Positions 3,994 to 29,124 of a stretch of 34,718 nucleotides of DNA are shown piece by piece. The notes beneath the pieces were generated by a model. It was given only the letters and a program-made list of their open reading frames with translations, did no database searches and was not told the origin of the DNA. How positions within the stretch are numbered: the first letter of the stretch is position 1; each line of letters starts with the position of its first letter. The stretch lies in the NCBI GenBank assembly GCA_023474835.1, contig JAMCXQ010000034.1:1-34718 (forward strand), written 5' to 3'. A program made the translations under genes and the position numbers. The DNA comes from Patescibacteria group bacterium. Its GTDB lineage: Bacteria > Patescibacteriota > Minisyncoccia > Minisyncoccales > CG1-02-41-26.

Positions 3994-4078
3994 GGTGGGG
4001 TACGAAAGTGGCTTAATCGAACGGCCTGGAGCGCCGTGCCCCGTAAGGGGCTCGTGGGTTCGAATCCCACCCCCACCG
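3994..4078 (+). tRNA. tRNA-Ser(GGA)
   Basis: Acceptor GGTGGGG/CCCCACC, anticodon stem-loop ACGGC-CTGGAGC-GCCGT, long variable arm GCCCCGTAAGGGGC, T-arm GTGGG-TTCGAAT-CCCAC; CCA not encoded. Confidence 0.95.
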
Positions 4079-4218
4079 CAAAATAATGAGCGAAGCGAAT
4101 ATATTTTGCGAGAGGGGAGCGAGCCAACTGCTTGGCTCGCGAAGGGATTCGAAGGGCGAGCCATGCCCCGTCCCAAACGGGGCCGCGAGCCCAGGGCGTA
4201 AATCCCATCCCCACCGCA
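4079..4218. repeat. Structured repeat downstream of tRNA-Ser, ending in a degenerate copy of the tRNA 3' end
   Basis: Hairpin GCGAGCCAA-CTGC-TTGGCTCGC (4119-4140); ATGCCCCGTcccaaACGGGGC variable-arm-like hairpin; AATCCCATCCCCACCGCA (4201-4218) matches tRNA-Ser 3' AATCCCACCCCCACCGCA at 17/18. Confidence 0.8.
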
Positions 4219-8812: not shown

Positions 8813-8917
8813 AATCTTGTTAGAAGTAGCGTCTTGGGGAATGGTTGTCCACAGCTTAAGTCCCGGATTCTCCGAGGGAACACCGTGGCATCCTCCAAGC
8901 TATTATTGCATACTTCT
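8784..8917 (-). ncRNA. Unclassified rod-like small RNA
   Basis: Minus-strand stem UAGAAGUA/UACUUCUA enclosing CUUGG/CCAAG, CCAC/GUGG, GUUCCC/GGGAC and apical CGGA-GAA-UCCG; bounded by promoter and terminator. Confidence 0.55.
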
Positions 8918-24078: not shown

Positions 24079-25260
24079 ATGAAAAGACAAAAACCAAAAC
24101 TAAAACAAAAAAAGAATTATCGCAAAAAGCCGGCAACAAAAACGGAAAAAGTCCGTTCGCGCCGGCCCGTAAAATCCGCCAAAAAACAGGGAAAAACCAA
24201 AAAGATGAATTTATTTTCCGAACAGGCCGTAAAGCCGGTCATTGACAAGGCGAGAAGCAGGGGATTTATCACCACCAACGAAATTCTAAGAGCTTTTCCG
24301 GCCCTGGAAAAGGACGTTTCAGGACTGGAGCAATTTATTGACGGTTTGCAGGCCCAGGGCGTTGACATTATTGAAAGAAGCGGTTTTTTGGAAACTCAAG
24401 CCCCAAAGAAAGACAAAAACGCCATGCAAAACAAAATCGACTCCGTGCAGATGTATCTGAAAGAAATCGGCAGTATGAGCATGATTACCGCCAAAGAAGA
24501 AAAGGAGCTGGCAAAACGCATTGAGCTTGGCGATCTTGAAGCGAAAAAAAAGCTGGCGCAGGCGAACTTGCGCCTGGTGGTTTCCATTGCCAAAAAATAC
24601 GTGGGCCGGAGCCCGAATTTGAGCCTGCTTGATTTGATTCAGGAGGGAAACCTGGGGCTTTTCCGGGCGGTTGAGAAATTCAACTGGCAAAAGGGCTATA
24701 AATTTTCAACTTACGCCACCTGGTGGATACGCCAGGCCATAACCAGGGCTTTGGCCGACCAGTCCCGCACCATCAGAATACCCGTGCATATGGTGGAAAC
24801 GCTGAGCAAATACGAAAAAGTGAAAAAGCGGCTTTTACAAACGTTGGGCAGGCCCCCTTTGGCCGAGGAGGTGGCCGCGGAAATGGGCCTGGAAGTTGAC
24901 AAAGTGCATCAGCTGCGCAAAATCAAGCAAAAATCCGTTTCTTTGGAAACGCCGGTGGGCGACGACGAAAAAGACAGCACTTTGGCGGAATTCATCCAGG
25001 ATGAAAAAACCCCTTTGCCTTCGGTTGAGGCGGCGCGCAATTTGCTGAAAGAACGGCTTGATGAAGTATCAATTGAATTAACCCCCCGGGAAAGAAAAAT
25101 TTTGGCAATGAGATTCGGCCTGGAAGACGATGTTACGCGCACTTTGGAAGAGGTAGGGGAGGAGTTTGGCGTCACGCGAGAGCGCATCCGGCAAATCCAG
25201 GCAAAGGCTCTTGAAAAAATCCGCCGTTTGCAGGGCGTGAAAAAGCTAAGGGATTATTAA
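24079..25260 (+). CDS. rpoD: RNA polymerase sigma-70 factor RpoD
   Basis: '[32 protein letters not shown]' and '[28 protein letters not shown]'. Confidence 0.97.
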
Positions 25261-25263
25261 AAT

Positions 25264-26160
25264 ATGACGAATTTGGAAAAACCCGGCGGCAATAAAGAAA
25301 CGGAATTTGATTTGTCAGGTACGTTTGACCGGAATGTGTTTGACTTTTTGCCCAAACATATACAAAATGATTTGCGGTTTATTCTTGAAAGATCGCTGGC
25401 CGTTGATAAGGCCACAATAAAAGAACGGTTAATCGAATTTATAAATGGCTATGAGGGCTTTTGCGATTTACAGAAATCCTTGTCTTCCCCGCAGAATAAA
25501 ATTGAGGCCAATATAATTCTGGAGCCGGAAAATCCTATCGTGCGAGAACATCGCTTGCACGTTTCTGCTGTTTTGCTTAAACAAGTTTCGGGCGAGGCGC
25601 CCCAGTATGCTGGTTATATAAGTTTATTTTTCCATTGCGACGGCAAGAAAAACGAGATTTATATTTTAAGCCGTGAGTTGAAAGAGCAAGGAATGGGTTT
25701 TGGTTTGGATTTAGAATGTCAAATTGAAGATTTCTGCCGTAGGGCAGGCATTTGGAATATTAGAAACAGGCCTACTACTGCGCCGTACGGATATGTGGGC
25801 GGTTATGTTTGGGCGAAATATGGCTACGAGTTTGACGATTCTTCGGATGTTGCGAATGTAAGGGATGATATAAAGCGTTTTGCAAAAGAACAAAACATTA
25901 TCATCAAAGAAAGCGACTTAAATAGATGTAAAAGGCCCATAGATTTTGCTTCATTGAAAGGTAAAAACGAAAATGGCGATGAGCTGCCAGCGGGCAAACT
26001 GTCCCTTCTTGAGCATTCCCAATGGCACGGCCGGCGTGATTTGCAGTTTGACAGTCAGGGTACCAAGGACTTTGTGGCTTATTTGAAACAGCGCGGCCGC
26101 CGCGACCTGATAGAGAAATTTTACCCGATGTTTCTTGAAAAAATAAGCAAAAGAGCTTAA
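25264..26160 (+). CDS. Divergent GNAT-like protein, paralog A
   Basis: 'EQGMGFGLDLECQIEDFCRRAGIWNI...GGYVWAKYGYEFDD' resembles GNAT motif A and terminal strand. Confidence 0.5.
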   Translation: MTNLEKPGGNKETEFDLSGTFDRNVFDFLPKHIQNDLRFILERSLAVDKATIKERLIEFINGYEGFCDLQKSLSSPQNKIEANIILEPENPIVREHRLHVSAVLLKQVSGEAPQYAGYISLFFHCDGKKNEIYILSRELKEQGMGFGLDLECQIEDFCRRAGIWNIRNRPTTAPYGYVGGYVWAKYGYEFDDSSDVANVRDDIKRFAKEQNIIIKESDLNRCKRPIDFASLKGKNENGDELPAGKLSLLEHSQWHGRRDLQFDSQGTKDFVAYLKQRGRRDLIEKFYPMFLEKISKRA

Positions 26161-26177
26161 AACTGCGAACTTTTAAT

Positions 26178-27113
26178 ATGTCCGGTTTTGAAAAACCAAA
26201 AGAGAAGGCAGATGAACGAACAGTTGGTTTGGCCAAAGAAATTTTTAACAGCGAGAAAGCGCTTGATGATTTGCGGCAAGAGCTTTCTGTTCCCGATCGT
26301 AAAATAGGATGTTCTTTTGACGCGAAAGTGGAAAAGGTTATCAGGGATGGCAAAAATGAATTCGGGGTTTTGCAAGTAAGGATTTACCTAGCGGAAAAAA
26401 CAGATAATGCCCCGCGTCAAATTGGTTATTTCAGTTTTTCTTTTGGCAAGCACCACGCGGTTTCGCAGGAACTTTACATAGAATTTAACGAGTTAATCGG
26501 AGAGAAACAGGATAAAGGGCTTGGTTTGGAGCTTGAATGCAAAATTGAAAATTTCTGCCGTTCGCATAATATCTGGGATATTTATAATACCGCAACCAGC
26601 GCCCCGGCCGGAGTTTTTGGCGAAAGCAGATTTATTGGCGGTTATTTTTGGGCGCGTATGGGTTTTGATTTTGATGAATTCAAAGAATCTACAAGGCACA
26701 GAATTGAATCTTGGAGAAAGGATTTAATTGAGTTTGCTCAAAACAAAAAAATCGACATTTTATTTGACCCGCTGGAGCTTACCATGCCTTTTGAGTTTGC
26801 CGGAGCAATGGGCTTGGACGAAGATAACCATATTGTCAGTTTGGGCAAGAAATTTTTTATAGAGGGCGAGATAAAATGGTTTGGCCACAAGGACTTGCGT
26901 TTTAACAGCCAATGTTCCAGGGATTTCGTTGGTTATTTGATGTTGAGGAACCGGTTTGATTTGCTGGAAGAATATTTCATTGAACCCCTTGACGCAGAAA
27001 GAGACAAAGAGTTTATTGATTATTTGGCGGCTGAATTGGCTGAAAAGGGCAAGGCGGATTTGTTCACAAAATATTTTCCGCAAATTCTTGAAAAAGACAT
27101 AGAAATAGAGTAA
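26178..27113 (+). CDS. Divergent GNAT-like protein, paralog B
   Basis: 'DKGLGLELECKIENFCRSHNIWDI...GGYFWARMGFDFDE'; aligns along its length with paralog A. Confidence 0.5.
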   Translation: MSGFEKPKEKADERTVGLAKEIFNSEKALDDLRQELSVPDRKIGCSFDAKVEKVIRDGKNEFGVLQVRIYLAEKTDNAPRQIGYFSFSFGKHHAVSQELYIEFNELIGEKQDKGLGLELECKIENFCRSHNIWDIYNTATSAPAGVFGESRFIGGYFWARMGFDFDEFKESTRHRIESWRKDLIEFAQNKKIDILFDPLELTMPFEFAGAMGLDEDNHIVSLGKKFFIEGEIKWFGHKDLRFNSQCSRDFVGYLMLRNRFDLLEEYFIEPLDAERDKEFIDYLAAELAEKGKADLFTKYFPQILEKDIEIE

Positions 27114-27141
27114 ATTAAAAGTGTCAATTTGCTCTGTACAA

Positions 27142-27159
27142 TTCAATATTCCGCGGTGG
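27142..27159 (+). repeat. Duplicate of tRNA-Asn 5' end and leader
   Basis: TTCAATATTCCGCGGTGG versus TTTAATATTCCGCGGTGG at 27358-27375 (17/18). Confidence 0.85.
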
Positions 27160-27163
27160 GTCA

Positions 27164-27331
27164 AAGCCAACTGCTTGGCTTTGACGGCCGATTTAGGAAA
27201 TCGTCCCCGATTTCCGTTAAAAATCGGCCAGGCACATTATATTAAGCCAACTGCTTGGCTTTGACGGCCGATTTAGGAAATCGTCCCCGATTTCCGTTAA
27301 AAATCGGCCAGGCACATTATATTAAGCCAAC
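27164..27331. repeat. 80-bp tandem repeat, two copies plus a partial third
   Basis: 27164-27243 and 27244-27323 identical by eye; third copy starts AAGCCAAC then diverges; each unit encodes two hairpins. Confidence 0.95.
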
Positions 27332-27365
27332 CGCATAGTTCATTTGAAATAAAATAGTTTAATAT

Positions 27366-27437
27366 TCCGCGGTGGCGCAATGGTAGCGCGAGGGACTGTT
27401 AATCCCCAGGTTGTAGGTTCGAATCCTACCCGCGGAG
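27366..27437 (+). tRNA. tRNA-Asn(GTT)
   Basis: Acceptor TCCGCGG/CCGCGGA, anticodon loop CTGTTAA, T-arm GTAGG-TTCGAAT-CCTAC; CCA not encoded. Confidence 0.95.
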
Positions 27438-27486
27438 CAAACGTGCCGACTTCGGCAAATATCCACCACATAATACATAAAGCAAA

Positions 27487-28273: not shown

Positions 28274-29124
28274 AGTTCAATTTTCGTACCAAAAATTCTT
28301 CAAAAATGTTGATTTTAAGCCCGAAACCCGCTCTTTGAAATTCAAATTTCTGTGATTGTATTTCCAGACATATTCTCCAAGGAAGAGAGGCAGTTTTTCT
28401 CGTCTAATTCCACCCTTGGCCGATAGCTTTCTTTTCAGATATCCCCAGAAACCTTCAAGGCCGTTAATATGGTGCCCTTTGCCGTCAGTGTATTCTTTTT
28501 TACCGTGGTCAACCAATCGGTGAACATATCCTTTAGCGGCTAATCCAGTGTAAGCCCTCCAACCATCAGAGCAAACCACCGAACCCTTAATGACTTGTTT
28601 TTCAATGAGTGGTTCCAAATCCTTGGCTTCCGTGTCCTTGACTATTTCAGCCCAGACCTTTCCTTCGCGGCACAAAATGCCAAACACCGGCTGCTTGATT
28701 GTTCCAAACCCCCGTCTGTTCTTGCTGTATTTACAACGTTCCGACAATCTCCTGTTTTTCATCTGACCGCCCAAGTATGTTTCGTCTACTTCCACTATTC
28801 CAGAAAAAACATCAGGCACCTCTTTAGCCATCGCTATCCTTAACAGAGTTAAAATTTTCAACAGTTTGTATTTGGAAATTTCAACTCTGGCAAGAATGGT
28901 ATCGGTGGAATGTTCCAACAAAAATTCTTCAATGATATTTTTTAAGATTGCTGGCTTTAATTTAAATGGATGATTTTGAAAAGTGAAGACCGAACGGCAT
29001 TGTTTACATTTTAACCGATTATCGTTTAATTGCCAAAAGTCCTTTCCTTTACAGGTTTTGCATTTGATGACCATACCTAATTTCATTGTAGTGTATTAGG
29101 TACGATTTTCAAACTTTACCCTAT
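28265..29124 (-). mobile_element. IS1595-family (ISXO2-like) insertion sequence
   Basis: Terminal repeats ATAGGGTAAAGTTcaAttttCGTACC and GGTACGattttcaAACTTTACCCTAT flank a transposase gene. Confidence 0.87.
28277..29086 (-). CDS. IS1595-family transposase
   Basis: N-terminal zinc ribbon CKTC...CKQC; 'VEVDETYLGGQ', 'VCSDGWRAY', 'HINGLEGFWGYLKRKL', 'EYVWKYNHR'. Confidence 0.93.
   Translation of the reverse strand: MKLGMVIKCKTCKGKDFWQLNDNRLKCKQCRSVFTFQNHPFKLKPAILKNIIEEFLLEHSTDTILARVEISKYKLLKILTLLRIAMAKEVPDVFSGIVEVDETYLGGQMKNRRLSERCKYSKNRRGFGTIKQPVFGILCREGKVWAEIVKDTEAKDLEPLIEKQVIKGSVVCSDGWRAYTGLAAKGYVHRLVDHGKKEYTDGKGHHINGLEGFWGYLKRKLSAKGGIRREKLPLFLGEYVWKYNHRNLNFKERVSGLKSTFLKNFWYEN

Follow-up and report, generated by a model that had tools for sequence, protein, structure and literature searches.

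A dispersed double-hairpin element associated with tRNA genes and duplicated gene starts in Parcubacteria

Mobile elements built of two adjacent hairpins are dispersed in the small mitochondrial genomes of fungi, and integrative elements carrying genes and an integrase use tRNA genes as attachment sites. The fungal double-hairpin elements have a layout like that of the element considered here but come from different organisms, the likeness being one of descriptions and not of sequences, and they are not known to duplicate tRNA fragments. Integrative elements at tRNA attachment sites insert in the gene and leave it whole, as this one does, but typically use its 3' half, whereas the present element is gene-free and each of its fragments is that of the local tRNA. 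In Escherichia coli, the rtT repeats of the tyrT operon are tandem, lie downstream of a tRNA gene and carry a fragment of the 3' end of that tRNA. In the present case, by contrast, the fragment is mostly of the 5' end and lies upstream, the unit is scattered over many tRNA genes, and there is no Rfam match.

The REP and REPIN sequences associated with RAYT (TnpA-REP) transposases are likewise short, palindromic, non-autonomous and spread within a genome (PMC3733652, PMC8266576, PMC3116915). Their mobile form is believed to be single-stranded DNA folded into an irregular stem, and the genome studied here has Y1 transposase genes. The REP class has a GTAG or CGTC tetranucleotide at one hairpin foot (PMC3733652), whereas the feet of this element, (T/G)GG then G.. 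on the left and ..CCCNGG on the right, have no such tag. The element is also a 73-nt unit of two unlike hairpins, as opposed to the 20 to 40 bp of a REP unit; it strongly targets tRNA genes with a duplicated gene start; and, unlike in a REPtron, no copy stands beside the two Y1 genes of the source genome. Bacterial MITEs (PMC10969869) are small, non-coding and dispersed and have no enzyme of their own. Our element differs in that it has no terminal inverted repeats around the unit, its inverted repeats being internal hairpins, and may also differ in its duplicated stretch, which is long, variable and absent at most non-tRNA sites. An integron attC site was set aside on inspection by eye, which showed an unpaired GTTAA loop and no core boxes that pair. 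No description of the family was found in the open-licence papers searched.

The locus lies in a window (the whole stretch of DNA analysed) of 34,718 nucleotides, contig JAMCXQ010000034.1 of assembly GCA_023474835.1, a 647-kb draft genome that is 94% complete, has about 41 tRNA genes and has Parcubacteria as relatives. In the window (Table 1), the 18 nt around the start of an intact tRNA-Asn gene, comprising 8 upstream nucleotides and tRNA nucleotides 1 to 10, are present twice, as TTCAATATTCCGCGGTGG upstream and as TTTAATATTCCGCGGTGG at the real start, with 17 of 18 positions identical. Between these copies are two 80-nt units (27164 to 27243 and 27244 to 27323) that are 100% identical, and a partial third from 27324. 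The initial annotation had recognized the duplicated 5' end, the two and a partial 80-bp units and the preservation of the tRNA gene, all of which were borne out. It had also proposed two hairpins per unit; both fold, although hairpin 1 of unit 1, which is GTCAAAGCCAA-CTGC-TTGGCTTTGAC, is longer than it stated. Because of this hairpin, the start of the element is placed at 27160, right after ..GGTGG. Hairpin 2 is GGCCGATTT-A-GGAAATCG-TCCC-CGATTTCC-GTTAA-AAATCGGCC, followed by AGG. In unit 2, hairpin 1 is missing its first few nucleotides, as would be expected of a tandem copy. The element region has a folding energy of -114.6 kcal/mol (z = -4.87), and none of 100 shuffles is equally stable. 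Gathering-score matches to Rfam in the window are to tRNA and the DUF3800-V RNA motif only (the latter at 8822 to 8917, minus strand, 74.3 bits), and no family was matched at the element sites scanned. An IS1595/ISXO2-type transposase gene (28277 to 29086, minus strand) lies about 0.8 kb downstream of tRNA-Asn.

Table 1. Positions of the element, of the tRNA-Asn gene and of related features in the window, and of nested tRNA loci in relatives.
Feature	Position	Strand	Remarks
Promoter-like site, TTGAAA-17-TAAATT	27088..27116	+	Upstream of copy 1, in the probable ancestral tRNA-Asn leader
Truncated tRNA-Asn 5'-end copy (copy 1)	27142..27159	+	8 nt upstream plus tRNA nt 1-10
Element unit 1	27160..27232	+	Covariance model 96.6 bits, E 1.7e-20; own sequence in model training set
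Unit 1, hairpin 1	27160..27185	+	
Unit 1, hairpin 2	27186..27229	+	Followed by AGG
Element unit 2	27241..27312	+	Tandem duplicate of unit 1, period 80; 76.1 bits
Unit 2, hairpin 1	27244..27265	+	
Unit 2, hairpin 2	27266..27309	+	Followed by AGG
Tail	27313..27357	+	Partial third unit (AAGCCAACCGCA, 27324-27335) and A+T-rich leader of the intact tRNA
Second 18-nt target copy (copy 2)	27358..27375	+	Start of the intact tRNA gene
Intact tRNA-Asn (gtt)	27366..27438	+	
Degenerate element relative beside tRNA-Ser	4119..4218	+	Read by eye, without covariance-model match; weak DNA match 4122-4137; hairpin GCGAGCCAACTGCTTGGCTCGC 4119-4140, second hairpin 4154-4192, tRNA-Ser 3'-end copy 4194-4218
Nested tRNA locus	L071:1264-1520		Same amino acid inside and outside
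Nested tRNA locus	L176:1656-1920		Same amino acid inside and outside
Nested tRNA locus	L180:5230-5520		Same amino acid inside and outside

The conserved unit, for which a covariance model was built from seven units, consists of 73 positions in two hairpins and is followed by a variable A+T-rich tail. Its left end is GNNAAAG.. and its right end GCCCNGG, with right ends varying in length. Among 90 distinct rows, 94.6% of the cells pair and 26 of 28 pairs show changes on both sides; covariation is 0.583, against 0.152 in shuffled and at most 0.112 in slid alignments, the alignment having been fitted to the model, which somewhat favors it. The conserved unpaired bases are the A and the opposing GTTAA of the internal loop of hairpin 2, together with the final GG. 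Hairpin 1 is a nearly perfect palindrome, with 9 G-U, 9 A-C and 961 Watson-Crick cells. An RNA acting as one strand would be expected to accept G-U much more readily than A-C, and we therefore read hairpin 1 as a DNA palindrome under selection or correction; the equal counts would fit DNA better than one-strand RNA. The idea of an overall outer stem enclosing the element was rejected: flanks pair with each other no better than foreign flanks do, with 5% at p <= 0.05 and a mean z of about 0. On contig C14 (L015:1643-1670), hairpin 1 (GTCAAAGCCAA..TTGGCTTTGAC) occurs alone after a gene, with a T-rich flank, in a terminator-like arrangement.

The covariance model finds 20 copies in the source genome (E <= 2.3e-4), most of them at about a dozen tRNA loci, and a plain DNA search of this genome likewise yields strong copies on contigs other than that of the window. 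Three unrelated tRNA loci of the source genome have 69 to 80 identical nucleotides in common; since stretches of 69 to 71 nt of the window unit recur at 100% identity in two other tRNA loci, the unit is far beyond chance. Copies occur in 18 of 100 relatives, and copy number is patchy, ranging from 0 to 26 per genome (1 to 26 in the positives, by the covariance model). Within the family, 13 of 24 genomes are positive at E <= 1e-6. The closest copy is in the same genome for 49 of 75 copies, as opposed to 10.1 expected. A degenerate pattern matched 24 times in a collection of one genome for each of 84,980 species. Seven of these matches are assigned no further than "bacterium," two of the seven being from G076, which belongs to the same order as the window; the matches with a named group are all of Parcubacteria type (Gribaldobacteria, Wildermuthbacteria, Terrybacteria, Paceibacterota and Parcubacteria). 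Viral contigs matched neither an exact 30-nt pattern nor the degenerate one. So far, the family has been found only in the Parcubacteria-type lineage.

In the source genome, 18 of the 20 copies are no more than 150 bp away from a tRNA gene, a zone expected to cover 2.4% of the genome (binomial p about 1e-27, calculated with 41 tRNAs; the tandem copies are not independent of each other, and about a dozen loci are). Across all genomes, 47 of 91 copies are near tRNAs and 44 are not, and G076 has 5 of its 24 copies near tRNAs. The left flank ends in GGG or TGG in 62 of the 91 copies, and copies stand in both orientations relative to tRNAs. Three arrangements recur. In class A (sense), a tRNA 5' fragment ending in TGG is followed by the element, the tail and the intact tRNA (Asn, Glu, Gln, Val and Ile in the source genome; Val, Gln, Pro, Ala and Asn in relatives). 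In class B (antisense), hairpin 1 starts within tRNA nucleotides 1 to 3 (Lys, Arg and Glu, in many genera), and class C copies (antisense) lie near the tRNA 3' end (Gly, Leu and Glu). Copies abut the 5' end of tRNA-Lys in eight family genomes and are the only ones detected in G015, G017 and G021; those at tRNA-Lys or tRNA-Arg 5' ends recur across genera without a duplication and could have a conserved role. Class B copies, among them L103, L075, L070 and L034, are followed in several genera by a third hairpin that contains conserved TCGCGCGGAATATAATA..TTCCGCGCGA and lies upstream of tRNA-Lys or tRNA-Arg.

At most class A loci, the first seven nucleotides of the fragment are the exact acceptor strand of the downstream tRNA, and the whole 18 to 19 nt match that tRNA with at most one or two differences; the fragment at tRNA-Val(cac) (L033) differs from the downstream tRNA. 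Outside the window, the duplication is often 18 to 19 nt and spans tRNA nucleotides 1 to 18, because the TGG of the D loop ends there. Lengths are about 18 to 23 nt at most tRNAs, the exceptions to 18 to 19 nt being Glu (23), Ala (22) and Pro (36), and values of 13 and 41 nt bring the overall range to about 13 to 41 nt. A duplication of about 18 nt barely suffices to restore a tRNA that was struck at the D-loop TGG, which would explain the layout of the survivors. Direct repeats of 71, 109 and 30 to 46 bp in G011 (Val, Pro and Asn) were set aside as long target duplications because the upstream unit at Val is another copy of the element and the Pro and Asn cases are tandem arrays.

A flanking-repeat score of at least 13 was reached by 16 of 84 copies, against a null rate of 0.6%. 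Among the 34 copies away from tRNAs, flanking direct repeats are present in 1 to 3, and 31 have no repeat with a score of 9 or more. Given this rarity, the duplication of the target may not be part of the insertion itself: either the repeat-free non-tRNA copies are old, or the duplication is a separate event kept by selection in genes only. Apparent protein-coding sites show a similar arrangement in G076, where two copies follow the first 36 to 41 nt of an apparent open frame whose start is repeated, in diverged form, on the other side. One of these frames, with the element near its start, reads by eye as an acylphosphatase.

Empty sites are present in relatives. In at least 11 other family genomes, tRNA-Asn has neither element nor 5' fragment in the 130 nt read upstream. 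Together with the proximity to tRNA genes in the source genome, these sites largely support the proposal of the initial annotation that a small non-coding element was inserted and its target duplicated. The tRNA-Asn gene lies 34 to 124 nt after rpoD in G001, G002, G012 and G020; in the window, rpoD (24079 to 25260) is followed by two unassigned reading frames and then by the element and tRNA-Asn. These frames (25264 to 27113) look similar to each other, the second having no Pfam match, and they occupy a gap that in several relatives is a short spacer alone. In 11 comparisons, the flank before copy 1 aligns with the element-free tRNA-Asn leaders of G020 and G015, in each case with p = 0.002, which is the lowest value that 500 shuffles can give; the sequence before the intact tRNA-Asn does not align in this way. 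Because it is the upstream flank of copy 1 that aligns, this truncated copy most likely marks the ancestral tRNA-Asn start. The TTGAAA-17-TAAATT site in that flank is promoter-like, as judged from its match to the consensus and the alignment with a relative. A second empty site is provided by the Leu-Val cluster, which in G016 consists of tRNA-Leu, 6 nt and tRNA-Val, and in G009 (of the same genus as G016) and G000 of tRNA-Leu, a Val fragment, one or more elements and tRNA-Val. In several genomes (G002, G010, G012, G016, G017, G021 and possibly G020; L193-L197 and L199-L204), tRNA-Asn itself appears to be interrupted in the anticodon loop by roughly 200 to 600 nt, the insert in G010 being a group I intron by Rfam (95 bits).

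We favor, with moderate confidence, the interpretation that the unit is a 73-nt, non-autonomous, mobile double-hairpin DNA element that inserts near gene ends, mostly those of tRNA genes, and survives where duplication of the target leaves an intact gene. Given the palindromic hairpin 1 and the conserved internal loop of hairpin 2, its working form would probably be a folded single DNA strand. A putative enzyme acting in trans would insert it immediately behind (T/G)GG on one strand or the other, strongly preferring tRNA genes and only occasionally using the first codons of protein genes. In tRNA genes, the insertion point lies within about 10 to 18 nt of the 5' end, or 36 nt in the case of tRNA-Pro, and the sequence between the gene start and this point stands on both sides of the element, the upstream copy as a dead fragment and the downstream copy as part of an intact gene. 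RNase P would be expected to remove the leader of that gene, such that the cell survives, and local multiplication could proceed by tandem duplication, as in the 80-bp repeat of the window.

The tRNA association might instead reflect function, if the element were a structured RNA of tRNA leaders whose hairpins and additional 5' fragment have a role in the pre-tRNA, such as competition with the genuine 5' acceptor strand or guidance of RNase P. Such a role agrees with the strong conservation of structure, the 18 of 20 source-genome copies near tRNA genes, the recurrent copies at tRNA-Lys (the sole ones in three genomes), the retention of the exact acceptor sequence of the cognate tRNA in the fragments, and the nested cases described below, in which outer acceptor strands pair in a sequence unlike that of the inner tRNA. 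We nevertheless regard it as unlikely, in that copies occur in both orientations, 44 of 91 are away from tRNAs, hairpin 1 shows no excess of G-U over A-C, no general stem closes across the element, and most relatives have no element at all, nor does their tRNA-Asn.

The remaining alternatives concern the order and the means of duplication. Tandem duplications of a tRNA start could be common, with the element landing in the spare copy and the remainder then being lost; tandem duplication is indeed common around the element (units of 80, 143, 158 and 178 bp), flanking repeats are nearly confined to genes, and a pseudo-tRNA with a related hairpin pair follows both tRNA-Leu and tRNA-Ser. However, there is mostly no remnant of a spare copy past the insertion point, as the fragment ends exactly at the element, and the duplicated lengths cluster near 18 to 23 nt at many unrelated tRNAs, making this history decidedly unlikely. 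A passive hairpin repeat spread between tRNA genes by replication slippage and gene conversion would need no dedicated enzyme, could use as short homology the D-arm sequence ending in TGG that is common to tRNA genes, and would suit the clustering of copies by genome. It is highly improbable in view of the non-tRNA copies with the same left motif and structure, the insertions at the start of apparent protein genes in G076, and the origin of the acceptor part of each fragment, which is that of the local tRNA instead of a donor.

For a mobile double-hairpin element, the candidate enzymes include the Y1 (IS200-like) transposases, two genes for which (C8:10747 and C27:885) are present in the source genome, neither with an element nearby. 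Y1 genes occur in 13 of 18 element-positive and 41 of 82 element-negative genomes (p = 0.12). Among 16 Y1 regions checked, 15 have no copy, and the one match is the known tRNA-Arg copy in G076; in G006, no Y1 gene was found despite its 7 copies. A Y1 transposase was thus rejected as a proven partner, the association being weak and flanking copies absent. Retrotransposition primed on a CCA end was also rejected: the element-rich genomes G000, G009, G011, G022 and G076, each with at least 5 copies, gave no match to the PF00078 reverse transcriptase, whose absence is probable but, in drafts, less than certain, and which is unlikely to be the general answer. In searching for the mobilizing enzyme, the element family offers a defined substrate.

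The tRNA genes of very small Parcubacteria genomes should be among the worst sites for a mobile element. We tentatively raise the possibility, itself doubtful, that the family represents a new, Parcubacteria-specific class of mobile folded DNA that is safe to itself in tRNA genes because the target duplication rebuilds the gene, and whose serial insertions produce nested tRNAs. A family living in such sites and never failing to leave a complete gene would illustrate how selfish DNA persists in minimal genomes, and would account for some of the peculiar tRNA loci of these genomes, which are split, nested or repeated.

At three loci, the 3' remainder of a split tRNA follows an intact inner tRNA: L176 (Terrybacteria, Ser), L180 (Wildermuthbacteria, Pro) and L071 (G002, Ala). 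At each of them, the two acceptor strands of the outer tRNA pair together (CGGGATG/CATCCCG, GGAAGGG/CCCTTTC and GGGCCTA/TAGGTCC), in a sequence that differs from that of the inner tRNA at all three loci, and the tRNA-like frame enclosing a whole tRNA folds with z values of -5.2 (L180), -8.4 (L071) and -6.2 (L176). In these three cases, the outer frames may be either leftovers or functional. Elsewhere in the window, a degenerate hairpin pair stands directly after tRNA-Ser (3994 to 4079), and on contig C34 of the source genome tRNA-Leu(taa) is followed by a comparable arrangement.
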